NCBI RefSeq assembly: GCF_014836675.1 | Contig: NZ_JACSQK010000008.1 | Coordinates: 1 to 64,000, forward strand | DNA length: 64,000 nt | DNA from: Comamonas avium | GTDB lineage: Bacteria; Pseudomonadota; Gammaproteobacteria; Burkholderiales; Burkholderiaceae_C | Direction of reading: 5' to 3' | Shown here: piece by piece, positions 7,017-55,513 of the stretch | Layout: each line of letters starts with the position of its first letter | How positions within the stretch are numbered: position 1 is the first letter of the stretch | Position numbers and translations under genes: made by a program | The notes under the pieces: generated by a model | Databases searched by the model: none | Seen by the model: only the letters and a program-made list of their open reading frames with translations | Told to the model about the DNA's origin: nothing

Positions 7017-8453
7017 ATGGCAAAAATTTTTATGGGCGTACGCCTGCGTTCCCTGCGGCAAGAGCGCGGCATGACGCAGGTGGCTCTGGCGCAGGCTCTG
7101 GGCCTGTCGCCCAGTTATCTCAATCAGCTGGAGCAAGACCAGCGGCCCTTCACCGTTCCTGTGCTGCTCAAGGTGCACAAGGCGCTGGGGGTAGACATTC
7201 AGCAGTTTTCCGAGGATGAAGAGGCCCGGCGTGTGGCGCAGTTGCGCGATGCGGTAGCGGCGTTGCCAGAGCTGCCGTCAGTGCCCGATGCCGAGTTGCG
7301 CGAGATGGCGCACAAGCTGCCACAGTTGTCAGAAGTTGTGCTGGCACTGCACCGCCGCCACCACGAAGACCAGCAAAGGCTGGAAGCCTTGGTGGATAGG
7401 TTGAGTGACCGTAACGATCTGTCGGAGCGCAACTGGCACACCGCGCCATTGCGGCAAATGCCGTTTGAAGCCGTGCGCGACTTCTTTTTTGCGCACCGCA
7501 ACTATTTTGATGCACTGGACCGCGCTGCCGAGGCCCAGGCGCAGCAAGCCAGCCAAAGTGGCAGGCCGTTGAAAGACTGGCTGGTGGAGCATTTGCGCCA
7601 GCAGCATGGCGTAGAGGTCGTGGTGGATACCACCCGCGCTCCCCATGACCCGGGTGCCCACCGTCAATTCGATCCGGCCAGCCGGCGTTTGCGCTTGCTG
7701 GGCAGCTTGAACACTGGACAGCAGGCGTTTGAGCTGGCCACGCAGCTGGCATTGCTGGAGCTGGCGCCGCTAATGCAACAGGCACTGGCCAGCCATGCCT
7801 GGCAAGATGGAGCTACAGAGCAACTGGCGCGCATTGGTCTGGCCAACTATGTGGCTGGGGCCACGGTGCTGCCTTACGGCGTTTTTTTGCAGGCGGCCGA
7901 GCGCTTGCACTACGACATTGGTGTGCTGGCCACCCAGTTTGGCGTGGGGTTTGAAACGGTCTGCCACAGACTGTCAACACTGCAGCGCGAGGATGCCCCT
8001 GGCATTCCTTTTTTCTTTATCCGCGTGGACCGGGCAGGCAACATCAGCAAGCGCCAGTCGGCCACCCATTTTCACTTTTCCAAAACGGGGGGCACTTGTC
8101 CCCTGTGGAATATTTATGAGGCGTTTGCACAGCCGGGGCGCATCTTGCCGCAGCTGGCCAGCATGCCTGATGGCCGTGTGTACCTGTGGGTGGCAAGGTG
8201 CATCACCCACGAAGGGCGGGGCTGGGGTGAGCCAGGTAAAACGTTCTCGATTGGCCTGGGCTGTGACGTGCAGCATGCGCACAGGCTGGTGTATTCCCAA
8301 GGCCTGGATTTGCGCGGTCTGGCGGCGGCCACACCGATTGGCATGGGCTGCAAAGTGTGTGAACGCAGCGCTTGTCCGCAGCGCGCATTTCCGTTTGTGG
8401 GCAAACCATTGCAGGTCAATGAGAACCTCAGTGGCTTTGTGCCCTACGCATGA
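7017..8453 (+). CDS. prpR: PrpR-type short-chain fatty acyl transcriptional regulator (XRE HTH plus DUF2083)
   Basis: A 478-residue protein with an N-terminal XRE helix-turn-helix (about residues 5-62, MTQVALAQALGLSPSYLNQL), a central IrrE-like region and a C-terminal DUF2083-type segment ending with GCKVCERSACPQRAFPF. This architecture matches actinobacterial RamB and PrpR, which sense propionyl-CoA metabolism. Mycobacterial PrpR, of nearly the same size, carries an Fe-S cluster, and the clustered C-terminal cysteines here could do the same. An in-frame ATG exists at 6960, but GGAG at 7004-7007 sits nine bases before the ATG at 7017, and the extra 57 bases contain operator repeats. It probably activates the divergent acnD operon. 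Confidence 0.88.
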   Translation: MAKIFMGVRLRSLRQERGMTQVALAQALGLSPSYLNQLEQDQRPFTVPVLLKVHKALGVDIQQFSEDEEARRVAQLRDAVAALPELPSVPDAELREMAHKLPQLSEVVLALHRRHHEDQQRLEALVDRLSDRNDLSERNWHTAPLRQMPFEAVRDFFFAHRNYFDALDRAAEAQAQQASQSGRPLKDWLVEHLRQQHGVEVVVDTTRAPHDPGAHRQFDPASRRLRLLGSLNTGQQAFELATQLALLELAPLMQQALASHAWQDGATEQLARIGLANYVAGATVLPYGVFLQAAERLHYDIGVLATQFGVGFETVCHRLSTLQREDAPGIPFFFIRVDRAGNISKRQSATHFHFSKTGGTCPLWNIYEAFAQPGRILPQLASMPDGRVYLWVARCITHEGRGWGEPGKTFSIGLGCDVQHAHRLVYSQGLDLRGLAAATPIGMGCKVCERSACPQRAFPFVGKPLQVNENLSGFVPYA

Positions 8454-8668
8454 CAACTGGGGGCAGTTGGCAGGGCGGTTGGTTGACACCCCCGGGCCAA
8501 TCGGCGCGGGAAGAAAATTTGCAAATACTTGCTGTGTGGGCTGGTGCACGTGCTGCCCGCAGCGATGAGGGCATATAAAAACAATTTAGGATGGCAGCCA
8601 TGCTTTCTCCGCATTTTTTTTGAAATGTATCTGAGGGGGCGAAAAATCAAAACAGGGAGATGACAAGC

Positions 8669-9778
8669 ATGGTGGACAAGGTCGATAGCATCGTCATTGG
8701 TGCGGGGGTTGTGGGGTTGGCGGTAGGGCGCGCACTGGCCATGTCGGGCCGCGAGGTGATTGTTCTGGAGGCTGCGGATGCGATTGGCACCGGCACCAGT
8801 TCACGCAACAGTGAAGTCATTCACGCAGGCATTTATTACCCCGCAGGCTCTTTGAAGGCGCAGTTGTGTGTCAAAGGCAAAGAGCTGCTTTATGACTATT
8901 GTGCGCAAAAGGGTCTGGAGTTTCGCCGCTGTGGCAAGTTGATTGTGGCCACCAGCCCAGCACAGGTGGCGCAGCTCGAGCAGATTAGGAAGAAAGCAGA
9001 AATCAACGGTGTGCACGACATGCAAATGCTCAGCCGCGAGCAGGCCAAAGCGCTGGAGCCTGCACTGGAGTGCCATGCTGCATTGCTGTCGCCCAGCACG
9101 GGCATTGTGGATAGCCATGGCTTGATGCTGGCCCTGCAAGGCGACATGGAAAACGCAGGTGGTGCGCTGGCCTTGATGTCGCCAGTGGATTCTGCGCAGG
9201 TGCAGACAGACGGTATTTTGATCCGCACCCCCGATGGCACCGAACTGCTGGCCAGCGAGGTTGTCAATGCCGCAGGCTTGTACGCCCCCAGCGTGGCCTC
9301 GCGCATGCAGGGGCTGGATGCGCAGTACGTTCCGCAGGCTTACTTTGCCAAAGGCAACTATTTCACTTTGACAGGGCGTGCACCGTTTTCGCACCTGATC
9401 TATCCCGTGCCCGAAGCAGCGGGTCTGGGTGTGCACCTGACGCTGGACATGGGCGGTCAAGCCAAGTTTGGCCCTGATGTGCAGTGGGTGGATGACCCTG
9501 AGCCACTTGCCGTGGACCCCCAGCGCGGCCAGGGCTTTTACGCAGAGGTGCACAAATACTGGCCCGGGCTTCAACCCGGCACTCTGGCACCAGGGTATGC
9601 CGGCATTCGCCCCAAAATTTCTGGCCCCAAAGACGAGGCTGCTGACTTTTGCATTCAGGGGCCTGAAGTCCATGGCATTGCAGGGCTGGTCAACTTATTT
9701 GGGATTGAGTCGCCCGGTCTGACCAGTTGCCTGGCCATTGCGCAGGAAGTTTTGCAAAAATTGCAGCCAAAGACTTGA
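8669..9778 (+). CDS. FAD-dependent oxidoreductase, L-2-hydroxyglutarate oxidase (LhgO)-like
   Basis: A 369-residue DAO-family flavoprotein. It has an N-terminal Rossmann dinucleotide motif ([15 protein letters not shown], about 9-23), an acidic residue ending the second strand (VLEAADAIG), and the segment [14 protein letters not shown] typical of the LhgO/L2HGDH branch. The C-terminus ([25 protein letters not shown]) closes the FAD site. Likely substrate is a 2-hydroxy acid such as L-2-hydroxyglutarate, with electrons passed to the quinone pool; the exact substrate is uncertain. GGGAG at 8655-8659 favours the ATG at 8669, because the earlier ATG at 8660 touches it directly. It follows prpR by 215 bases and ends before the DUF883 gene. 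Confidence 0.8.
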
Positions 9779-9903
9779 TCTTGCGCGGCATCGACTTACT
9801 TGGTAAGCCATGCTGCATTGGCTAAGATGACAACCAGCATCGCGAGTTCGGCAGTTTTTCTGCCGCAAACTATTTCTTCATCGACATAAGAAAGGCTTTC
9901 ATC

Positions 9904-10215
9904 ATGGCATTTTCTGTTTCTGACACCGTTTCTTCTGCGCAAGCCGATCTGGAAAAGCTGGTCACCGACGTGCGCGGTTTGCTGGCCAACAAGGATCTGG
10001 ACGCGATTCCCCAAATCAATGTGCTGCGCCAAAAGCTCGATGACGGTGTGTATCAGGCCCGCGAATCTGCGCTGAACGCGGCGCACGAGGCAGCTCGTCA
10101 GGCCAAGGAAGCTGCCTACGTGGCAGACCGTTATGCACACGATGAGCCATGGCGCGTTGCTGGCGCTGCGTTGGCCGTAGGTGCTTTAGTCGGCTTCTTG
10201 CTGGCTCGTCGCTAA
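9904..10215 (+). CDS. DUF883 (ElaB/YqjD/YgaM) family membrane-anchored protein
   Basis: A 103-residue protein with a long amphipathic, coiled-coil-like helix (about residues 5-75, rich in alanine, glutamate and lysine) and one C-terminal membrane segment (VAGAALAVGALVGFLLARR) ending in two arginines. This is the arrangement of E. coli YqjD and ElaB, inner-membrane tail-anchored proteins that associate with ribosomes in stationary phase. It begins a three-gene run with the YqjE-like and YqjK-like genes, the same order as E. coli yqjD-yqjE-yqjK. Confidence 0.87.
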   Translation: MAFSVSDTVSSAQADLEKLVTDVRGLLANKDLDAIPQINVLRQKLDDGVYQARESALNAAHEAARQAKEAAYVADRYAHDEPWRVAGAALAVGALVGFLLARR

Positions 10216-10268
10216 ACGACGATTTACCTTCCCCCCTTCAGCAACGTGCCCAGCAAAGGAAATCTGCC

Positions 10269-10664
10269 GTGAATTGGATGTCAGCCCTTGGGTTGGAAAA
10301 CGTGTCTGCTCGCATGCGGGCCAATCTCAATGAAGGCGCCATGGCGGCAGAGGACCGCATGGAGCTCGCCCGCCTGGAATGGAGCGCGCAGAAAAAACGC
10401 CTGCAAACCATTTTGGTACTGGGCATTGTGATGGGTGGACTGACGATTGTTGCCCTGGTGCTGCTGTCGCTGGCCATCTTGATCCACTTCTGGGATTCTC
10501 CCGAACGCTCGGTGGTGGCCTGGGTAATTGCTGGCGTGTGGGTGGTGGCCTGGGCAAGTGCGCTGGTGGTCTTGCTGGCAGCGCTGCGCAAATCCAGCCA
10601 TCCATTTGCATTGACACGTGCTGAACTGGCCCGCGACTGGGCTTTCATCAAGGAGAAGCTGTGA
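10269..10664 (+). CDS. Phage holin superfamily / YqjE-like membrane protein
   Basis: The 131-residue protein has two strong membrane segments (about residues 46-70 and 82-104) between a charged N-terminus and a basic C-terminus. This is the actinobacterial holin-X/YqjE family, which is chromosomal and unrelated to lysis here. I take the GTG at 10269 because AAAGGA lies about nine bases upstream; the ATG at 10278 is an alternative. Its TGA overlaps the GTG start of the next gene, so the two are translationally coupled. Role unknown; stress-related membrane function is inferred from the YqjD neighbour. Confidence 0.78.
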   Translation: MNWMSALGLENVSARMRANLNEGAMAAEDRMELARLEWSAQKKRLQTILVLGIVMGGLTIVALVLLSLAILIHFWDSPERSVVAWVIAGVWVVAWASALVVLLAALRKSSHPFALTRAELARDWAFIKEKL

Positions 10665-11035
10665 ACACTTCTGCAGCACCTCAATCTGTGCGCAGCTCAG
10701 AGACGCCGTTGCCAGTGACTGCACTGGCTGCACTGGAGCAAGATGGGCGCTGGCTCACGGCCGGTGATGCCGAGCGTGCGGTGATGAAGCGCATTGCCAT
10801 GCAGCGTGACCGCTTGGCTGCTGCCAAACTGGCCAGACACCAGTCGCAGGCCTTGCATGCCGCGCCCCAGGCGGTGCCCGCTGACGCGCCACTGCTCGAG
10901 CGTCTGGCCGTGTTTGCCAGATTGCACCCTGTGGCCACAGCGGCAGTGGCAGGCTTGGCGCTGATGATAGGGCCGCGCAAACTGCTGCGTTATGGCGGCA
11001 TGGCGCTGCCGTTGATTGCCAAGTTCAAGCGCTAG
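10661..11035 (+). CDS. YqjK-like hypothetical protein
   Basis: A 124-residue basic protein. An alanine-rich N-terminal half carries several arginine and lysine residues (AERAVMKRIAMQRDRLAAAKL). It is followed by one hydrophobic segment (HPVATAAVAGLALMIGPRKLL, about 92-112) and a basic tail. The GTG start overlaps the previous stop and has AAGGAG at 10650-10655. Position and shape match the third gene of the yqjD-yqjE-yqjK cluster; sequence conservation in this family is weak, so the family call is by context. Confidence 0.65.
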   Translation: MNTSAAPQSVRSSETPLPVTALAALEQDGRWLTAGDAERAVMKRIAMQRDRLAAAKLARHQSQALHAAPQAVPADAPLLERLAVFARLHPVATAAVAGLALMIGPRKLLRYGGMALPLIAKFKR

Positions 11036-11055
11036 CGCGGTAAACACGTGCAACA

Positions 11056-11086
11056 CAAAAAAGCCCGGCATGCCGGGCTTTTTTTT
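11056..11086 (+). terminator. Rho-independent terminator of the yqjDEK-like operon
   Basis: The perfect palindrome AAGCCCGGCATGCCGGGCTT at 11061-11080 is preceded by an A-run and followed by a T-run to 11086. Confidence 0.9.
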
Positions 11087-11164
11087 ATAGCTGTTAACGC
11101 AAGCTGGGTAACACTTTCAAAGTGAAAACATGCTGAAAGTGAGATGTGGTAAGCGCTGATAGCT
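11087..11164. repeat. Nested double-stem intergenic repeat, imperfect copy
   Basis: Outer arms start ATAGCTGTTAACGC and end AAGCGCTGATAGCT. Inside lies a separate 8-base stem, CACTTTCA at 11112-11119 with TGAAAGTG at 11134-11141. The layout matches the better copies at 37423-37500 and 45531-45622. It occupies much of the gap between the yqjK-like and pyrD ends. Confidence 0.55.
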
Positions 11165-47322: not shown

Positions 47323-47340
47323 GTTTTCTGTTTCGTTGAA

Positions 47341-47364
47341 CTGTACCTGTCTTAAAGGGTACAG
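47341..47364. promoter_or_regulatory. Operator CTGTACC-N10-GGTACAG in the MocR/HMGR promoter region
   Basis: CTGTACC at 47341-47347 and GGTACAG at 47358-47364 form a perfect 7-base inverted repeat with a 10-base spacer, between the divergent regulator and HMG-CoA reductase genes. The same arms and spacing occur at 55477-55500 upstream of the importer operon. Confidence 0.75.
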
Positions 47365-47457
47365 CACGCCTAAAGTCATGGCTAGCGTGACAACACCAAC
47401 ATGACGGGGCCGGGCCACCGGTCTTCGCAGTCAGAGAAAACTCCAAGGAGCACAAAA

Positions 47458-48729
47458 ATGGATTCCAGAGTCAGTGGCATGCGCGACATGCAGCCGGCAG
47501 AGCGTTTGGCCGTGCTGGCCCGTGTGGCCGAGATGGACAGCGCCGATAGGCAACTGCTGGCCGGGCCAGGGGCCCTGCCGCTGGGCACGGCCGACGGCAT
47601 GATCGAAAACGTAGTGGGCACATTTGAGCTGCCCATGGGCGTGGCCACCAATTTTCAGGTCAATGGCCGCGATGTGCTGGTGCCCATGGTGGTGGAAGAG
47701 CCATCGGTGGTGGCTGCGGCATCGTTCATGGCCAAGCTGGTGCGCAGTAGTGGCGGTTTCCTTACCTCCTCTACCAAGCCATTGATGCGTGCACAGGTGC
47801 AGATGGTGGGCATGACAGATCCTCACGGGGTACGCCATGCAGTGCTGACCCACCGTGAGGAGATCATCGCTATGGCTAACTCCAAGGACAAGGTGCTGGT
47901 GGGCCTGGGCGGCGGCTGCCAGGACCTGGAGGTGCACGTGTTCGAGCACACGCCGCGCGGCCCCATGGTGGTGGTGCACCTGATTGTGGATGTGCGCGAC
48001 GCCATGGGTGCCAATACGGTCAACACCATGGCCGAAATGGTGGCGCCCCTGCTGGAGCGCATCAGCGGGGCCAGCGTGCGTTTGCGTATCCTGTCCAATC
48101 TGGCGGATTTGCGGCTGGCGCGGGCCGCCGTCACCTTGAGCCCGGAGCAGCTGAGCACGGCGCAGTACCGGGGTGAAGAGGTCATCGAGGGCATTCTGGA
48201 TGCCTATACCTTTGCTGCCGTCGATCCTTATCGGGCGGCCACCCACAACAAGGGCATCATGAATGGGATTGATCCGGTGATCGTGGCCACCGGCAACGAC
48301 TGGCGTGCGGTGGAGGCCGGGGCCCATGCTTATGCGGCCCGATCGGGGCGCTACACCTCGCTCACGCATTGGGAAAAGAACCGTGCAGGCCACCTGGTGG
48401 GCACCATCGAGCTGCCCATGCCCGTGGGTTTGGTGGGGGGCGCCACCAAGACCCATCCGCTGGCCCGCTGGGCATTGCGCCTGATGCAGGTGGGTAGTGC
48501 GCAGGAGCTGGGGGAAATCGTGGCGGCCGTGGGGCTGGCGCAAAACCTGGCCGCGATGCGTGCACTGTCCACAGAAGGTATTCAGCGCGGCCACATGGCC
48601 TTGCATGCCCGCAATATTGCCCTGCTGGCCGGCGCTGAGGGCGAGCAGGTGCAGCGTGTGGCCCAAGCACTGGTGGCTGAGCGCAATGTCAGCGTGGATC
48701 GCGCCAAGGAGCTGCTGCAGGCAGCTTGA
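47458..48729 (+). CDS. mvaA: Hydroxymethylglutaryl-CoA reductase, class II (degradative type)
   Basis: The 423-residue enzyme interconverts mevalonate plus CoA and HMG-CoA. Class II members such as Pseudomonas mevalonii HMGR work in the oxidative direction with NAD during mevalonate breakdown. The catalytic set is intact: Glu81 ([10 protein letters not shown]), Lys265 ([10 protein letters not shown]), Asp281 ([10 protein letters not shown]) and His379 (ALHARN), matching Glu83, Lys267, Asp283 and His381 of that enzyme. The dinucleotide segment [11 protein letters not shown] is near 178-188. AAGGAG lies seven bases before the ATG at 47458. Divergent from the MocR-type gene. An HMG-CoA lyase gene is not beside it. 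Confidence 0.94.
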
Positions 48730-48791
48730 TGCCAAGCCCGGCCAGCCACCACCCGTGCAAGCCGGGGCTGGCCGGGATTGTTGCAAGGCTT

Positions 48792-50492
48792 TTAGTTGCG
48801 CTTTTTGCGCTTGCGCAGATCGATCATGCCGGGCAGCAGGCGCGGGTCGCTGTGCTGGGGGAAGATGGCGTGCTTCTGGATCTTCTGCGTGCCTGTCGTG
48901 GGAATCTGCTGGGCAAACCAGAGCCAGCCGGGAGTCTTGTAATAAGCCATGTTCTGGTTGCAGAAGTCGAACAATGCCTGGGCGATCTGATCGTGGTCTT
49001 GGCCCGTGGCCTCGGTCGAGGGCTTGAGCACCACGCAGGCCAGCACCTCTTCGTCGCGTATCTCGTCCTGCACCGCCATGACGGCGGCGTTTTCCACCCA
49101 CGGATGGGTGACCAGCAGTGCCTCGATTTCAGCAGCCGCAATGTTTTCACCGGACCTGCGGATGATGTTTTTGCGCCGGTCCATGAAATGGAACATGCCC
49201 GTGGCGTCGCGCACCACCATGTCGCCGGTATGGAACCAGCCACTGCGCCAGGCCTGCTCGGTGGCCTCCGGATCGTTGTAGTAGCCAGAGAAAAAATCCT
49301 GCCGGGGGCTGTGTGCGCTGTGGCGTATGACCAGCTCACCCGCACTGCCGTCGGGCACTGTCTGGTCCAGCTCATCAACGGCTCGGGCTTGCAGTCCTTG
49401 GCTGGGTCGATCTCGGCCAAAAGCGCGCGTGCCCACTTGGCGCGGGGCCTGGCAGTCCATCATGACCCTCACCATCTCAGTCATGCCCCACAGCTCCAGA
49501 AGCGGTACGCCAAACCGTTCTTCAAACGCGGCATGCAGTTGCGGCTCCACGCCGGCCCCGGCGGCAAAACGTAGCTGGTGGGCACGGTCCAGCTCGGAAG
49601 GCGGCTGTACGAACAGCATCTGCATGATGACGCCCAGATAGTGCGCAATGGTGGCGCGGGTCTGCACCACCTCCCTCCAAAAGCGGGTGGGCTGGAAACG
49701 GTCGCTCTGAATCTGGCAGCCGCCCGTGAGTAGCATGCAATAAAAGGACAGGATGGAGGCGTTGACGTGAAACAGCGGCAGTGGGTTGTACAGCCGGTCC
49801 TGCTTGCCAATGGTGGCCAAACCCCCCAGCCTGGCATAGTCCTGCCCTGCAGCCAGCTCGTAGCGGTGGGAGAGCACACAGCCCTTGGGTCTGCCTGTCG
49901 TGCCTGAGGTGTACAGAATGCTGGCGGGTGTGTCTGCGCAGACTGCGCCAGCTTCTGCACTGCGTGGGCATGGCGGCAGGGCGGCGGTGAATGCCTCAAG
50001 AGCAACCACGGGAGGCTGGTTGCCGCTGTGTAGCAGCGCGGCCTGTGTGTGTTCGATTCGGTCTTGCAAGACCACCAGCAGATCGACCTGGGCGTGATCG
50101 ATCAAGTAGGCGTACTCACGCGGGCGGTAGTCCGGGTTGACGGGAACACAGCACACGCCCAGCGCATTCAGTGCCAGCTTGTGCAGCATGTGCTCAGGGC
50201 GGCTGTCCAGCAGCAAACCTACGCGGTGGCCCAGGCCGTAGCCGGCGGCCGTGTAGTGCTGCATCAGCTCGCGAATGGCATCGGCTGCTTGCTGGTAGGT
50301 GATTTCGCAGCCCGCGGGCAGGTAGTTGCGGGCTGGGTTTTCAGGGATGCACAGCAGGCTGTGGTGGCCATAGCGCTGTGCAGCGGAGAAAAGGACTTCT
50401 CCGATTGTGCTGTCGGCGTGGATGTCGATCACGGGAACTCCCAAGCACCGCAAGGGTGTCTTGTCTGCAAAAAGAGGAGGCGAGCCATGCAC
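48792..50492 (-). CDS. AMP-binding acyl-CoA ligase
   Basis: The 566-residue ANL-superfamily enzyme adenylates a carboxylic acid and transfers it to CoA. Motifs are ILYTSGTTGRPKGC near 192-205, ELWGMTEM, GWFHTGDMV, DRRKNIIRRSGENIAAAEIE and the terminal catalytic lysine segment GTQKIQKHAIF. The overall pattern is closest to crotonobetaine/carnitine-CoA ligases. The substrate is unknown; context suggests a small branched or hydroxylated acid linked to mevalonate, HMG or acetoacetate. A GTG at 50432 with GGGAG five bases upstream is an alternative start. It is last in the livK-livH-livMG-livF operon. Confidence 0.87.
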   Translation of the reverse strand: MHGSPPLFADKTPLRCLGVPVIDIHADSTIGEVLFSAAQRYGHHSLLCIPENPARNYLPAGCEITYQQAADAIRELMQHYTAAGYGLGHRVGLLLDSRPEHMLHKLALNALGVCCVPVNPDYRPREYAYLIDHAQVDLLVVLQDRIEHTQAALLHSGNQPPVVALEAFTAALPPCPRSAEAGAVCADTPASILYTSGTTGRPKGCVLSHRYELAAGQDYARLGGLATIGKQDRLYNPLPLFHVNASILSFYCMLLTGGCQIQSDRFQPTRFWREVVQTRATIAHYLGVIMQMLFVQPPSELDRAHQLRFAAGAGVEPQLHAAFEERFGVPLLELWGMTEMVRVMMDCQAPRQVGTRAFGRDRPSQGLQARAVDELDQTVPDGSAGELVIRHSAHSPRQDFFSGYYNDPEATEQAWRSGWFHTGDMVVRDATGMFHFMDRRKNIIRRSGENIAAAEIEALLVTHPWVENAAVMAVQDEIRDEEVLACVVLKPSTEATGQDHDQIAQALFDFCNQNMAYYKTPGWLWFAQQIPTTGTQKIQKHAIFPQHSDPRLLPGMIDLRKRKKRN

Positions 50493-50549
50493 AGCGGCCG
50501 GGCCGCCCTGTGAAAGAAACGGGGGCTAAAAGAGGAGGGCGTGCTGTTT

Positions 50550-51275
50550 TCAGTGGCTGCCGAGATAGGCCGCACGCACCTTGTCGTCGCTGCGCAGGGC
50601 CGTGCTGGAGCCTTCCAGTATGATTTTTCCGGTCTCCAGCACATAGCCGCGGTCGGCAACACTCAGGGCCTGGTTGGCCATTTGCTCCACCAGCAAGATG
50701 GTGATGTCACGCTGCTTGAGGCTGCGCACAATGGAGAAAATCTCTTTGACGATCAATGGCGCCAGACCCAGCGAGGGTTCGTCGAGCAGCAGCAACTGGG
50801 GTCTGGCCATCAGGGCGCGGGCAATGGCCAGCATCTGCTGCTCGCCGCCGGACATGGTGCCGGCCATTTGGTGCTGACGTTCCTTGAGCCGAGGGAAGGC
50901 CAGGAACTGTGCCTCAATGTCGTGCTCCAGTTCGGCCCGGGTAGCCTTGCGGTGGTAGGCACCCAGCATCAGATTGTCACGCACGCTCTGGTCCGCAAAG
51001 ACCTGGCGGCCCTCGGGCGACTGGGCAATACCCAGCGCCACCCGCAGGTGGCCAGGCATGCGGGTGATGTCCTGGCCCTTGAACAAGACGCTGCCCGAAT
51101 GTGCCGGCTCCAGGCCCGAGATCACCTTCATCAGTGTGCTTTTTCCGGCACCATTTCCACCAATCATCGTGACGACCTCGCCGGGATAGACCTCCAGCGA
51201 AATGCCTTTGAGCGCCTCCACTGCACCGTAGCGGGCCTGCAAGTCTTTCACTTGCAAAACAGGTGTGTCATGCAT
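50550..51275 (-). CDS. livF: ABC transporter ATP-binding protein, LivF type
   Basis: A 241-residue ATPase of the branched-chain amino acid/urea family. Walker A is GGNGAGKSTLMK near 36-47, the signature is MSGGEQQMLAIARALM near 133-148, Walker B is LLLLDEPSLGLAP near 153-165, and ILLVEQMANQAL holds the switch region. It pairs with the ATPase domain of the fused LivM-LivG protein, whose stop it overlaps by eight bases. The transported solute may be a branched carboxylate rather than an amino acid. Confidence 0.93.
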   Translation of the reverse strand: MHDTPVLQVKDLQARYGAVEALKGISLEVYPGEVVTMIGGNGAGKSTLMKVISGLEPAHSGSVLFKGQDITRMPGHLRVALGIAQSPEGRQVFADQSVRDNLMLGAYHRKATRAELEHDIEAQFLAFPRLKERQHQMAGTMSGGEQQMLAIARALMARPQLLLLDEPSLGLAPLIVKEIFSIVRSLKQRDITILLVEQMANQALSVADRGYVLETGKIILEGSSTALRSDDKVRAAYLGSH

Positions 51276-53097
51276 GCTTGTTTTCCAATGAAGTTGCGAA
51301 GGTGGCAGGAGCGAGCTGCGCGTCATCGTCCGGTGCACCGAGGTAGGCGGTGATCACGCGTGGGTTTTTCTGTACCTGTGTGGGTGTGCCTTCAGCGATC
51401 TTTTCGCCGTAGTCGAGCACGATTACGTGGTCGGAAATGGCCATCACCAGGTCCATGTGGTGCTCGATCAGCAGCACAGTGATGCCCAGCTCCTTGATGC
51501 TTCGGATCACGCCTGTCAGCTCCTGTGTTTCCTGGGGGTTCAGGCCTGCCGCAGGCTCATCGAGCAGCAGCAAACTGGGCCGGGTGGCCAGCGCGCGAGC
51601 CAGCTCTACCCGACGTTGCAGGCCGTAGGGCAGGCTGCCCGCAGTTTCATAGGCCTTGGTGTCCAGCCCCAGGAACTGCAACACCTGCATGGCCTGTGCA
51701 GTGGCCTCGCGCTCTTGCCTTTTTGCAGCAGGAAGTGCAAAGAGATAAGCACCAAATCCTGCGCGGATATGCTGGTGCAACCCCACTTTGACGTTGTCGA
51801 TCACGCTCATGTCGGCAAAGAGCTTCAGGTTCTGGAAGGTGCGACCCAGGCCCATGGCGCAGATCTGATTGGCAGGCTTGGCCAGAATGCTCTCACCGCA
51901 AAAACGTATAGCACCCTTGGTTGGCGGGATGATGCCTGAGAGGATGTTGAGCAGCGTGGTCTTGCCCGCACCATTGGGGCCAATCAGCGAATGCACATGA
52001 CCGGGCTGAAGGTCGATACTGATGTTGTTGGTGGGCACCACGCCGCCATAGGCCTTGTACAGCCCCTCGGTTTGCAGCAACGGGCCCTTGACATCGATTG
52101 CACGTGCACCAGCCAGCTCGCGCAGACTGACTGATGGCAGCGGTATGTCCCGGTTGCTCAAGGCTGGCTTGCGCTTGGTGAAGAACCTGGACACCGTACC
52201 TGACAGCCCATCGGGCATGACATACAGACCAAACAGCAGCAAAGCGCCATAGGTGAAGTGCTGCACACCGGGCCAGCGTGCCAAAAAAGCGTCCAGCAGT
52301 GTAAGGACCAGGGCACCTAGCAATGGCCCATAAACCGACTTGCCTCCGAGCAGCACGATCAGCAAAAAGAAGATGGACAGATTGAACGTGATGAAGTCGG
52401 AGTTGATGTACTGGTTTTGCTGTGCCACCAAGGCACCAGCTACACCGCAGGTGACGGCACTGATCACAAATGCCAGCACCTTGAACTTGTACACGCTGAC
52501 CCCCACGCTTTCGGCAGCCACTTCTGCCGTGTTCACTGCCATAAAGGCCCGGCCGAACTTGCCGCTGAGCAGCGAGCGCATCATCAGATGGGTTGCCACG
52601 CCCAGTGCCAGAACCAGCCACACCCATTCGCGCATGTCGAAGATATGTCCGTTGATGGACAGGGGCAGCACACCGTAGATGCCTTGCTGGCCGGCAAAAA
52701 CGTCCTGCCATTCAGAGACCACTTTTTCGACCACAACGCCAAAACCTATGGTCACCATCGCCAGGGCCGGGCCTTTGACGCGCAAGGCGGGTAGTGCAAT
52801 CAGCACGCCAAAGATACCGGCCACGACACCCGCTGCCAGCAAAGCCAGCCAGGGGTTCCACTCCATGCGGGCAGTCAGCAAGGCGGCCGTGTAGGCGCCC
52901 ACCGCAAACAGGCCAGCATGGCCCAGCGACTTCTGCCCGGTATAACCCACCAGCACATTGAGACCGGCGGCAGCCAGATAGTTGATGCCGACCATGAAAA
53001 CGACCTTCAGGTAAAAGCCGTTGTCCGTAATCAGTGGCAGCAGGGCGGCAATGGCGGCAAACAGGGCCACGCCAGCAAGATGTTTGTATTGCCCCAT
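51268..53097 (-). CDS. Fused ABC permease-ATPase, LivM-LivG
   Basis: A single 609-residue frame. Residues 1 to about 320 are a LivM-type permease with about nine membrane helices (LNVLVGYTGQKSLGHAGLFA is the conserved early segment). After a linker, residues about 355-609 are a LivG-type ATPase with Walker A GPNGAGKTTLLN, signature-region LPYGLQRRVELARALAT and Walker B LLLLDEPAAGLNP. In most LivFGHMK systems these are two genes. No internal stop or frameshift is seen. The start at 53097 overlaps the livH stop by one base; an in-frame extension to 53688 lies inside livH and is not coding. Confidence 0.93.
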   Translation of the reverse strand: MGQYKHLAGVALFAAIAALLPLITDNGFYLKVVFMVGINYLAAAGLNVLVGYTGQKSLGHAGLFAVGAYTAALLTARMEWNPWLALLAAGVVAGIFGVLIALPALRVKGPALAMVTIGFGVVVEKVVSEWQDVFAGQQGIYGVLPLSINGHIFDMREWVWLVLALGVATHLMMRSLLSGKFGRAFMAVNTAEVAAESVGVSVYKFKVLAFVISAVTCGVAGALVAQQNQYINSDFITFNLSIFFLLIVLLGGKSVYGPLLGALVLTLLDAFLARWPGVQHFTYGALLLFGLYVMPDGLSGTVSRFFTKRKPALSNRDIPLPSVSLRELAGARAIDVKGPLLQTEGLYKAYGGVVPTNNISIDLQPGHVHSLIGPNGAGKTTLLNILSGIIPPTKGAIRFCGESILAKPANQICAMGLGRTFQNLKLFADMSVIDNVKVGLHQHIRAGFGAYLFALPAAKRQEREATAQAMQVLQFLGLDTKAYETAGSLPYGLQRRVELARALATRPSLLLLDEPAAGLNPQETQELTGVIRSIKELGITVLLIEHHMDLVMAISDHVIVLDYGEKIAEGTPTQVQKNPRVITAYLGAPDDDAQLAPATFATSLENKHA

Positions 53098-54017
53098 CAG
53101 ACTTTCTCCACCAGACGCTGCCCCAGCAGACCTTCTGGCTTGAGCACCAGAACAAAAATAATCAGCAGGAAGATACTGATTTCTCGCAGTTCGGCCTGCC
53201 ACAGACCGACCATGGCCTCCAGAAGCCCCAGCAGGAAACCGCCCAGCATGCAGCCGCGCGGGTTGCTCAGTCCGCCGACGATGGCGGCTGAGAACGCCTT
53301 CAGAGCCAAGGTCAGGCCCATGAAGACCGAGGCCGTGGTGATGGGGGCAATCAGCAGGCCGGCAATGCCTGCCAGGCTGGAGCTGACAATGAATGCCAGC
53401 ACGATGATGGCGGTGACATTGATGCCCATCAGCACAGCAGCCGGGCCACTTTGTGCCACGGCGCGCACGGCCTTGCCCAAACGGGTTTTGCGCATGATGA
53501 CATCCAGGCACAGCATCAGGGACACGCTGATGCACAGCACCAGAATTTCTTGCGGCAGTACGCCGGCACCGCCGATGCGAATGACGTCGTTGCCCAGCGG
53601 AGAGGGCATCACCATGGGGGAAGGGCCCCAGATGGCGAGCGCAATGTTCTGAACAATGATGCCAAAACCGATGGTGCTCATCACCCATGCCAGGCCGGGC
53701 TTGCCGAAGAAAGGGCGCACGGCGGTGTAGTACAGGAGCACGCCCAGCGCACCCATGAGCAAAAAGGTGGTGACCATGCTCAGGCCGTAGCGCGCGAGGG
53801 TGACTTCGGCAATTTCCAGTGAGCCTTGCAAATCGTGACCGGCCAGCAGCAGCAGCACGGAAACGCCTATAAAAGCCCCAGCGACCAGGAATTCTCCCTG
53901 GCCGAAGTTGAACGTCTTGGTGGTGTTGTAGGTAATGTTGAAGCCCAGGGCAACCAGCGAGTAAATGCTGCCCAAGGCTAAGCCACTGAAAATGGCCTGA
54001 AGAATGCTGGCTTGCAT
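53097..54017 (-). CDS. livH: ABC transporter permease, LivH type
   Basis: A 306-residue permease with about eight membrane helices. The early LALGSIYSLVALGFNITYNT segment and NFGQGEFLVAGAFIG are hallmarks of LivH, and the GLTLALKAFSAAIVGGLSNPRG loop near 223-244 is the EAA-like coupling region. With LivM it makes the membrane channel. Its stop overlaps the LivM-LivG start. A hairpin lies between it and the binding protein gene upstream. Confidence 0.94.
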   Translation of the reverse strand: MQASILQAIFSGLALGSIYSLVALGFNITYNTTKTFNFGQGEFLVAGAFIGVSVLLLLAGHDLQGSLEIAEVTLARYGLSMVTTFLLMGALGVLLYYTAVRPFFGKPGLAWVMSTIGFGIIVQNIALAIWGPSPMVMPSPLGNDVIRIGGAGVLPQEILVLCISVSLMLCLDVIMRKTRLGKAVRAVAQSGPAAVLMGINVTAIIVLAFIVSSSLAGIAGLLIAPITTASVFMGLTLALKAFSAAIVGGLSNPRGCMLGGFLLGLLEAMVGLWQAELREISIFLLIIFVLVLKPEGLLGQRLVEKV

Positions 54018-54108
54018 TTGAGAGATTCCTATCAGCCTGAAAAATGCAGATGTGCTGCCGCGTGGCAGCGGTCAGTACCGGTCTTTATGCATGGATGCCA
54101 TGTCATGA

Positions 54109-54136
54109 AAGCGAGCGACACCGCTGCCGCTCGCTT
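54109..54136. terminator. Intercistronic hairpin between livK and livH
   Basis: AAGCGAGCG at 54109-54117 and CGCTCGCTT at 54128-54136 form a perfect 9-base stem. On the minus strand only a short T-rich sequence follows, so it is probably a partial attenuator or an mRNA-stabilising hairpin that lets the binding protein be made in excess. Confidence 0.6.
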
Positions 54137-54192
54137 GGGTCACCGCCAAAAGCTGCCAGGCGCGCACGCCCAGCGGCGGTGACATGATCCGT

Positions 54193-55383
54193 TTACTTTT
54201 TCAGGTCAGAAGGCTGCAGGCTCTTGGTGATGTCGTCCTCGTACTTGGTGACCTCACTGCCTTTCCAGCGAGCCAGATAGAAGTCCTGTACGCCCAGACC
54301 TTCGTGGTTGGCCTTGGAGAAAGGCTTGCTGTAGGTCTTGATGACACCGGGTACAGAGTCCAGATTTTCCAGCGCGGCAGCAACCTTGGGGCCATCGGTG
54401 CTGTTGGCCTGCTTCATCGCAGCGGCAATCAGCATCACCGAGTCGTAGGCCTGGGCGGCGGCAGGGAATGTGGTCAGCGTGGGAAAGTTCTTGCGAATCC
54501 GTTCGCCCAGAGCCTTGGTCTTTGCACTGGTGTCCTCCGTCGTGGAGGCCGCCATGATCAGGTTCGGAGCCAGCGCGGGGCCCGTCATTTTGGGGAACAG
54601 CGAGCTCAGATTGCCCCAGGCACCCAGTGTGGTGGGCTGGTAGTTGATCTTTTCCATGCTGCGCACGACCTGGGCTGTGCCGTCCGCCAAGCCATAGACG
54701 ATCACGGTGTCGGCGCCAGCAGCCTTGATCTTGGACAGCTGCGAGGTGATGTCCGTGTCTTTGGGACCGAATTTTTCCACAGCCACCGGCTTGATGCCGT
54801 GCAATGCCAGTATGTCGGTGGCATCCTTGGTGCCGCCTTGTCCGTAGCCGGTGGAGTCGGCAATGATGGCAACCTTCTGGGTCTTGGTGCTCTTTGCTGC
54901 ATAGGCACCCAGCAATGCGGTTTGTTCGCGGTCAACCATGGAGACGCGGAAAAGGTAGTTCTGGGCTTCCTTGGCGTAACGGGTTGTGATCTCCGTGCCG
55001 GTGGCAATCGGCACCACTACCGGAATTTTCTTTTGCTGCGGGATGTGCAGCCAGGCCAGGGCGTTGCCGGAGTTGGCAGGCCCGACCACAGCAGCTACCT
55101 TTTCGTTGTCGATCAGCTCTGTCATGTTCTGGATGGACTTGGGTGGCGTACCCAGATCGTCACGGATGACGCCCACCACCTTGCGGCCAAGAATACCGCC
55201 CGCTTTGTTGACATCTTCAATGGCAGCCTCAAAAGCCCAGCGTCCGGAAATTCCCAGCTCGGCCACACCGCTGCCGGACAGATCGGCGTTGTAGCCAATC
55301 TTGATGTCCTGGGCGAAGGCGCCTGCACCAGTGAACAAAGCTGCTGCCATCATGCTGTAGCCGAATTTCTTGCTTGTCTTCAT
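54193..55383 (-). CDS. livK: ABC transporter substrate-binding protein, LivK type
   Basis: The 396-residue periplasmic protein has a signal peptide of about 24 residues (KKFGYSMMAAALFTGAGAFA cleaved before QDIKIG) and a type I periplasmic-binding fold. Landmarks are IKIGYNADLSGSGVAELG, NKAGGILGRKVVGVIRDD, VVGPANSGNALAWLHIPQ and the C-terminal ALENLDSVPGVIKTYSKPFS. AAGGAG precedes the ATG at 55383. It is the first gene of the importer operon and has the CTGTACC-N10-GGTACAG operator about 95 bases upstream. The solute cannot be told from sequence. Confidence 0.92.
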   Translation of the reverse strand: MKTSKKFGYSMMAAALFTGAGAFAQDIKIGYNADLSGSGVAELGISGRWAFEAAIEDVNKAGGILGRKVVGVIRDDLGTPPKSIQNMTELIDNEKVAAVVGPANSGNALAWLHIPQQKKIPVVVPIATGTEITTRYAKEAQNYLFRVSMVDREQTALLGAYAAKSTKTQKVAIIADSTGYGQGGTKDATDILALHGIKPVAVEKFGPKDTDITSQLSKIKAAGADTVIVYGLADGTAQVVRSMEKINYQPTTLGAWGNLSSLFPKMTGPALAPNLIMAASTTEDTSAKTKALGERIRKNFPTLTTFPAAAQAYDSVMLIAAAMKQANSTDGPKVAAALENLDSVPGVIKTYSKPFSKANHEGLGVQDFYLARWKGSEVTKYEDDITKSLQPSDLKK

Positions 55384-55476
55384 GCTTGTCTCCTTGTATG
55401 TCATGCAGGGAATAAGGCTGTGCGTTTTCCTGCAATGTGTTCGGCTCTGTATGGCCGACGGTGCACTGTAAATTCA

Positions 55477-55513
55477 CTGTACCCACGTGAGTAGGTACAG
55501 TTCGTCGGTACAG
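55477..55513. promoter_or_regulatory. Operator of the livK operon, same motif as the MocR/HMGR operator
   Basis: CTGTACC at 55477-55483 and GGTACAG at 55494-55500 are separated by ten bases, exactly as at 47341-47364. A further GGTACAG half-site follows at 55507-55513, and CACTGTA is directly repeated at 55464-55470 and 55475-55481. Confidence 0.75.

Follow-up and report, generated by a model that had tools for sequence, protein, structure and literature searches.

A putative regulatory element of 49 bp occurs twice in a 64,000-nucleotide stretch of the Comamonas avium genome (assembly GCF_014836675.1, contig NZ_JACSQK010000008.1, positions 1 to 64,000 of the forward strand; hereafter the window). 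One copy lies between the divergent genes for a MocR-type regulator and a hydroxymethylglutaryl-coenzyme A (HMG-CoA) reductase (HMGR), and the other precedes livK, the first gene of an operon for an ATP-binding cassette (ABC) importer and an acyl-CoA ligase. Judged from sequence comparison, both promoters very probably belong to one small regulon for mevalonate catabolism. The best overall explanation, in which we have high confidence, is that the MocR regulator acts through the predicted operator at both sites and co-ordinates the import and oxidation of mevalonate.

A preliminary description of this region reported an exact CTGTACC-N10-GGTACAG repeat at 47341-47364 and 55477-55500, and both copies were present. 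Its assumption that this 24-bp palindrome is the entire operator was rejected, as a further box and a -10-like hexamer are also fixed in position. The complete element consists of a CTGT box, N6, CTGTACC, N10, GGTACAG, N6 and TAnAnT, and it is oriented toward the HMGR gene at site 1 and toward livK at site 2. Boxes 1 and 2 are direct (CTGTnnn and CTGTACC) with starts 13 bp apart, and the inverted box 3 (GGTACAG) starts 17 bp past the start of box 2. Box 1 of site 1, CTGTTTC in the same 13-bp register, had been overlooked; it starts 5 bases upstream of the ATG of the MocR gene. An additional GGTACAG had been noticed at 55507-55513 and is indeed there, but it is box 1 of site 2 rather than an extra repeat.

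The conservation of this architecture was assessed in 41 aligned sites, of which 31 precede HMGR, 8 livK, 1 a ligase gene and 1 a transporter operon of the tripartite ATP-independent periplasmic (TRAP) type in genome G129. Both matches of locus L038 and two stray matches (L100 and L108) were left out. Because boxes 2 and 3 served to collect the sites, their own conservation carries no weight; the evidence lies in box 1, the AA in front of box 2 and the hexamer. The TGT of box 1 and the AA directly before box 2 were kept in 41/41 sites. Before any row was removed, CTGT at -13 was present in 29/32 HMGR sites and 8/8 livK sites. TAnAnT stood at exactly +6 behind box 3 in 32 of the 41 sites, at +5 in one, and at no other offset from 0 to 29, and the outer flanking columns held only about 0.05-0.5 bit.

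Two other interpretations of these features were set aside. The TACAGT lying 6 bp behind box 3 was considered as a fourth box, but it reads as a -10 element pattern, since T, A and the final T are kept (36, 40 and 40 of 41), C occurs in 24/41 and GG is missing. The AA before box 2 was considered as the -10 of mocR; against this, it is kept just as strictly at the 8 livK sites, which face a gene other than mocR.

In the C. avium genome, the element is exclusive to these two promoters. The exact 24-bp motif was found twice in the window and twice in the assembly of 3,926,881 bases, at the same two sites. From the base composition of the window, about 0.017 exact matches are expected in the genome, and the probability of two or more is about 1.4e-4, before the placement of both sites within 8.2 kb at promoters is counted. 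With up to 3 mismatches, the window contained 6 matches compared to a shuffle mean of 1.66, and 0/100 shuffles reached 6; the remaining four matches (2-3 mismatches) lie outside the pattern. The full 49-bp element, with up to 3 mismatches allowed, occurred in the assembly at these two promoters only, each time with 0 mismatches, and a search for a wider regulon with the full pattern accordingly gave these two sites only. The half pattern (boxes 1 and 2, up to 1 mismatch) matched 20 times in the assembly; 18 matches lay away from the two sites, and each of the 18 fell at a place not matched in the assembly-wide 24-bp motif search. The preliminary description had named a motif common across the genome, without a link to these genes, as grounds for refutation, and this was not observed.

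The distribution of the element was analyzed in 299 genomes of the same family, and MocR orthologues were defined by at least 55% identity. The 49-bp element was found in 28/299 genomes at 33 sites, all with 0-1 mismatch though 3 were allowed, and a reversed-pattern control matched in 0/299. Each of the 33 sites precedes HMGR, livK or the ligase (22 in the MocR-HMGR gap, 10 at livK and 1 at the ligase). The MocR orthologue was present in 29/299 genomes, and the degradative HMGR (TIGR00532) in 33/299, 31 of them above the curated cut-off; G003 carries it in two pieces, and G090 gave a 35-bit match. The element occurred in 28/29 genomes with a MocR orthologue and in 0/270 others. The sole MocR genome without the full element was G129, where the hexamer stands at +5. 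Compared with HMGR, the element was found in 28/33 genomes with and 0/266 genomes without the reductase. Within the 33 HMGR-positive genomes, it was present in 28/29 with a MocR orthologue and in 0/4 without one (G047, G294, G116 and, with its 35-bit match, G090). The element tracks MocR more tightly than HMGR.

The exact 24-bp motif was found in 25/299 genomes, namely 24/29 with a MocR orthologue and 1/270 without, and the other five MocR genomes have a version with one mismatch. The exact match in G064 and a second one in G219 were judged to be chance matches, because neither has box 1 and the G064 match lies inside an open reading frame. Tracking of the motif with the MocR and HMGR genes, an issue left to be settled by the preliminary description, thus held across the family. 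Its proposal that the importer and ligase operon and the reductase are under one regulator is supported by this linkage, from which we infer the MocR protein as the simplest candidate.

The comparison was extended outside the family to named loci from GTDB genomes. The operator was found in the Pseudomonas loci L027, L028, L029 and L032 (one change, box 3) and in one Hyphomicrobiales genome (L042). Boxes of the CTGTCCC/GGGACAG type were found instead in L035, L037, L046 and L047 (two Rhizobium, Brucella endophytica and Tistrella), where MocR is 35-38% identical. Among HMGR loci without an adjacent MocR, mostly from distant organisms, 0/49 have the operator.

The regulator has the domain plan of a MocR protein. 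Its N-terminal GntR winged helix (PF00392, residues 10-70) scored 44.5 bits against a cut-off of 27, and its C-terminal fold-type I aminotransferase domain (PF00155) scored 97.8 bits. The predicted lysine for binding of pyridoxal 5'-phosphate (PLP), K310, is kept in 63/63 aligned HMGR-linked rows (60 distinct). The operator also agrees with the MocR subfamily, whose operators comprise two to four direct or inverted boxes. NCBIfam results for the window proteins refer to the best 25 of 71 families; among these, all named MocR models stayed below the curated cut-off (PdxR 209/320, YczR 165/487, EhuR 143/480, PtsJ 92/573 and GabR 81/600 bits). The recognition helix carries KNT in 60/63 rows, KNI in 2 and INT in 1. 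KNT was absent at that place in 12 other fetched MocRs, the nearest being KNS in a 44% identical relative in genome G188. In the VEDDxY stretch, 8/12 of these other MocRs have Tyr, and the HMGR-linked rows instead have Leu (43), Phe (15) or Met (5). Placed by eye, this Tyr is presumably the PLP-contacting Tyr of aminotransferases. Its replacement, with the PLP lysine kept, possibly bears on the sensing of a non-amine ligand. It is conceivable, though somewhat doubtful, that the aminotransferase-like domain of this MocR has a remodelled PLP pocket and senses a non-amine compound (mevalonate or a CoA-pathway product). The regulator would then govern an ABC importer dedicated to mevalonate, whose place is taken in other bacteria by TRAP or TctA-type systems.

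Features of the MocR, HMGR and liv region (positions are those of the window)
Feature	Position	Strand	Basis
MocR/GabR-type regulator, 473 aa	45901..47322	-	Pfam GntR and Aminotran_1_2; PLP lysine K310
HMGR-side operator/promoter element (site 1, predicted)	47328..47376	+	Motif search and conserved architecture
Site 1, box 1 CTGTTTC	47328-47334	+	
Site 1, box 2 CTGTACC	47341-47347	+	
Site 1, box 3 GGTACAG (inverted)	47358-47364	+	
Site 1, -10-like hexamer TAAAGT	47371-47376	+	
HMG-CoA reductase, degradative type, 423 aa	47458..48729	+	TIGR00532, 414 bits (cut-off 259.95)
Acyl-CoA ligase, last gene of the livK-led operon	48792..50492 (longest open reading frame; true start probably lower)	-	Pfam AMP-binding and AMP-binding_C
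LivF-like ABC ATPase	50550..51338 (longest open reading frame)	-	Pfam, NCBIfam
LivM-LivG fusion (permease and ATPase), 609 aa from ATG at 53097	51268..53097	-	Pfam, NCBIfam
LivH-like permease	53097..54017	-	Pfam, NCBIfam
LivK-like periplasmic binding protein	54193..55404 (likely start ATG 55383, behind AAGGAG)	-	Pfam Peripla_BP_6
livK-side operator/promoter element (site 2, predicted)	55465..55513	-	Motif search and conserved architecture
Site 2, -10-like hexamer TACAGT	55470-55465	-	
Site 2, box 3 GGTACAG (inverted)	55483-55477	-	
Site 2, box 2 CTGTACC	55500-55494	-	
Site 2, box 1 CTGTACC	55513-55507	-	

The HMGR product matched the structures PDB 6dio (672 bits) and 1qax (626 bits), the latter of which we take to be the enzyme of Pseudomonas mevalonii. 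A biosynthetic role is unlikely, because DXP (1-deoxy-D-xylulose 5-phosphate) reductoisomerase (PF02670) is present in the genome and HMG-CoA synthase (PF01154) gave 0 matches there (mevalonate kinase was not searched). Two HMG-CoA lyase genes above the NCBIfam cut-off are located elsewhere in the genome, outside the block in the window. One of them lies two genes downstream of a biotin-carrying carboxylase subunit, a neighbourhood that, by analogy, appears like that of leucine degradation. The parts of a Liv/HAAT importer are complete by Pfam, with a Peripla_BP_6 binding protein, two BPD_transp_2 permeases and two ABC ATPases. All Liv-named NCBIfam models stayed below the cut-off for the importer, as did PRK06155, the best NCBIfam match of the ligase. 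The context of the importer suggests a hydroxy-acid substrate.

The gene order around HMGR varies among the relatives. Longest-frame calling picked some antisense frames in high-GC neighbours, and therefore only families checked by Pfam or tblastn were used. Two elements are present in five genomes, the C. avium genome itself, G289, G175, G069 and G080. The layout with operators at MocR-HMGR and livK recurs with rearranged gene order in G289, G175 and G069. The MocR-HMGR pair of G175 and G069 is inverted with respect to the liv operon, and MocR and HMGR are non-adjacent in G080, with the operators kept in each case. In G129, MocR (58%) faces a Pfam-confirmed DctP-DctQ-DctM TRAP transporter followed by an HMGR of only 55% identity, and the same three boxes are present. 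The transporter near HMGR in relatives is Liv-type, TRAP or TctA-type. G099 has HMGR, livKHMGF and HMG-CoA lyase in one row with no ligase match, and HMG-CoA lyase lies inside the HMGR block in L032, L038 and L202. The simplest common denominator of these neighbourhoods is mevalonate uptake and oxidation.

Several individual loci show further arrangements. In G080 (L198, G080:C1:2357000-2376500, 7757-11106), two GMC (glucose-methanol-choline) oxidoreductase paralogues lie between HMGR and livF on the same strand, and these could extend the pathway upstream of mevalonate. In G003 (L252, G003:C1:3663500-3678000), HMGR is present as two overlapping pieces beside MocR and the liv genes, a split that may reflect a broken gene or a sequencing error. 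G116 (L201, G116:C59:10000-20000) carries an HMGR of 75% identity with no MocR orthologue and no element, a case in which HMGR can be under other control. In G188 (L205, G188:C45:171000-179000; no HMGR match), the 44%-identical MocR heads a DctP-DctQ-DctM transporter, and its upstream region has box 1 and box 2 with a degenerate box 3. This appears to be a sister regulon whose target is different.

In the proposed mechanism, the adjacent MocR would bind the three boxes at both sites. Box 3 ends 6 bp before the putative -10 of the promoter, which reads toward HMGR at site 1 and toward the livKHMGF-ligase operon at site 2, and transcription is predicted to start near 47383 (+) and 55458 (-), respectively. 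MocR would activate both operons when an inducer, mevalonate or a pathway product, is present. The operator at site 1 spans the mocR leader, and MocR would probably repress its own gene there. The ABC importer would bring in mevalonate, HMGR would use CoA to oxidise it to HMG-CoA, which an HMG-CoA lyase encoded elsewhere in the genome would split to acetoacetate and acetyl-CoA.

The mode of action was considered from the promoter sequences. A sigma-70 consensus promoter scan gave nothing at either window site. In 31 hexamer-bearing sites, the best -35 match at 16-18 bp reached 4/6 in 4 sites, 3/6 in 21, 2/6 in 5 and 1/6 in 1; 5-6 of 6 was found in none, and the 4 sites with 4 of 6 compare with about 3 expected from shuffles. 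Activation in the presence of inducer is likelier, because the promoters lack a good -35 hexamer and boxes 2 and 3 fill its place. Together with the divergent layout, this makes it likelier that MocR activates its target and represses its own gene, as with GabR and PdxR, for which target activation and self-repression are reported in PMC5320631. According to the same paper, MocR genes frequently stand divergent to targets that they regulate positively and repress themselves, and the most frequent motif structure, in 245 of 761 regulons, is two direct boxes followed by one inverted box.

MocR might, on the same operator, instead repress both operons and be released by a pathway metabolite, like EnuR on the ectoine genes. 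Box 3 directly precedes the -10 hexamer, and a protein bound there could block the polymerase; weak -35-like matches (3/6) are commoner than in shuffles, and EnuR, itself a MocR/GabR member, is called a repressor in PMC8739950. We nevertheless consider repression somewhat unlikely, given that no site of the promoter set has a good -35, that the consensus scan found none at either window site, and that the characterised MocRs in the introduction of PMC5320631 are target activators, often auto-repressing. The substrate is a separate matter. The importer and ligase may handle another compound, such as another hydroxy-acid or a precursor of mevalonate or HMG-CoA, which the regulon would then serve. 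Liv/HAAT importers form a broad family, a plain mevalonate-to-HMG-CoA route has no need of the ligase, and the G080 block adds two GMC oxidoreductases. This is unlikely in view of the TRAP or TctA-type transporters adjacent to HMGR elsewhere and of the G099 row, in which HMGR, livKHMGF and HMG-CoA lyase stand together without a ligase match.

It is very improbable that the shared operator is bound by some other, unlinked transcription factor and that MocR is a mere neighbour. The element was found in 28/29 genomes with a MocR orthologue and 0/270 without, and it is absent in 4/4 HMGR-positive genomes lacking the orthologue. The three boxes stay with MocR in G129 despite the changed importer type and HMGR class, and the box structure fits MocR regulators. 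The stray exact matches in G064 and G219 suggest that the 24-bp arms can arise by chance, but neither has box 1, and the G064 match lies inside an open reading frame. With about 0.017 exact sites expected, the 49-bp element at two sites only and the linkage across genomes, a chance repeat of the palindrome is practically negligible as an explanation.

Several points weigh against control of mevalonate import and oxidation by an activating MocR. The -35 argument is weak, and a poor -35 may exist: matches of at least 3/6 were found in 25/31 sites compared to about 14 expected from shuffles. Mevalonate as the importer substrate is what we infer from gene context. In G003, G072, G136, G142 and G295, the operator is present at livK only, and the MocR-HMGR gap holds a single CTGTACC with no GGTACAG. 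The HMGR-side site of L038 (Rhizobium), excluded from the 41, has no in-register box 1. Among 19 named loci with a MocR of at least 45% identity beside HMGR, 11 have the N10 operator (up to 1 mismatch), or 14/19 when exact arms at N8, N9, N11 or N12 are also counted; with a MocR at 30-45%, 12 loci gave 2 with the N10 operator and 3 with the other spacings counted. The orthologue calls depend on our own 55% threshold, set at a gap above identities of 44%, 40% and 39%, and on five scored candidates per genome. Because the 49-bp pattern was derived from sites in some of the same genomes later counted, the presence counts are partly circular, which the absences are not. The Fisher value for the element with MocR (1.6e-38) ignores shared ancestry and, as related genomes are not independent, overstates the association and is read as description only.

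The preferred explanation, a MocR regulator co-ordinating mevalonate import and oxidation, would provide a probable function for a group of MocR proteins that has orthologues in 29/299 family genomes and related HMGR-side operators in Pseudomonas and some Alphaproteobacteria. For comparison, 48 of 86 MocR groups are without an assigned role in PMC5320631. It predicts mevalonate importers of three transporter families, and it provides the exact operator for a possible mevalonate sensor, which would be of use to isoprenoid metabolic engineers. The alphaproteobacterial CTGTCCC/GGGACAG boxes offer a natural operator variant for the study of protein-DNA co-variation. A further question is how a PLP-fold regulator would sense a ligand that has no amine and is unable to form an aldimine. 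Searched by title or abstract start, the literature gave no report of a natural mevalonate-responsive switch or of mevalonate importers. By title, it gave none of a MocR with mevalonate, a MocR with an HMG-CoA operator, or a GntR with a hydroxymethylglutaryl-CoA reductase regulon.

Compared with known systems, the regulon belongs to the MocR kind described by Suvorova and Rodionov (2016, PMC5320631), with which it shares the GntR winged helix-turn-helix and aminotransferase fold, the divergent target, and two direct boxes and one inverted box. It differs in its presumed target pathway, since hydroxymethylglutaryl, HMG, mevalon, branched-chain and CTGTAC are absent from the main text of that paper; the regulon may be listed unnamed in the supplementary tables or RegPrecise. 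The ectoine regulator EnuR/EhuR (PMC8739950) is likewise a MocR/GabR member that controls the catabolic genes of one nutrient, but it serves another pathway, is described there as a repressor and has inducers that carry a primary amine. GabR of Bacillus subtilis (PDB 4n0b) shares the subfamily, the domain plan, the PLP lysine and the logic of a divergent activator and auto-repressor. Its ligand, gamma-aminobutyric acid, is an amine that reacts with PLP, whereas the presumed pathway substrate here has no amine, and the HMGR-linked MocRs carry Leu, Phe or Met where most of the other MocRs compared have the Tyr of VEDDxY. The mvaAB system of P. mevalonii, to which the HMGR structure 1qax is assigned, has the same degradative route of HMGR and HMG-CoA lyase. 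Its described regulator, MvaT, is not known to be a MocR. Unlike mvaAB, the block in the window has its lyase outside, and the importer and ligase share the operator instead.

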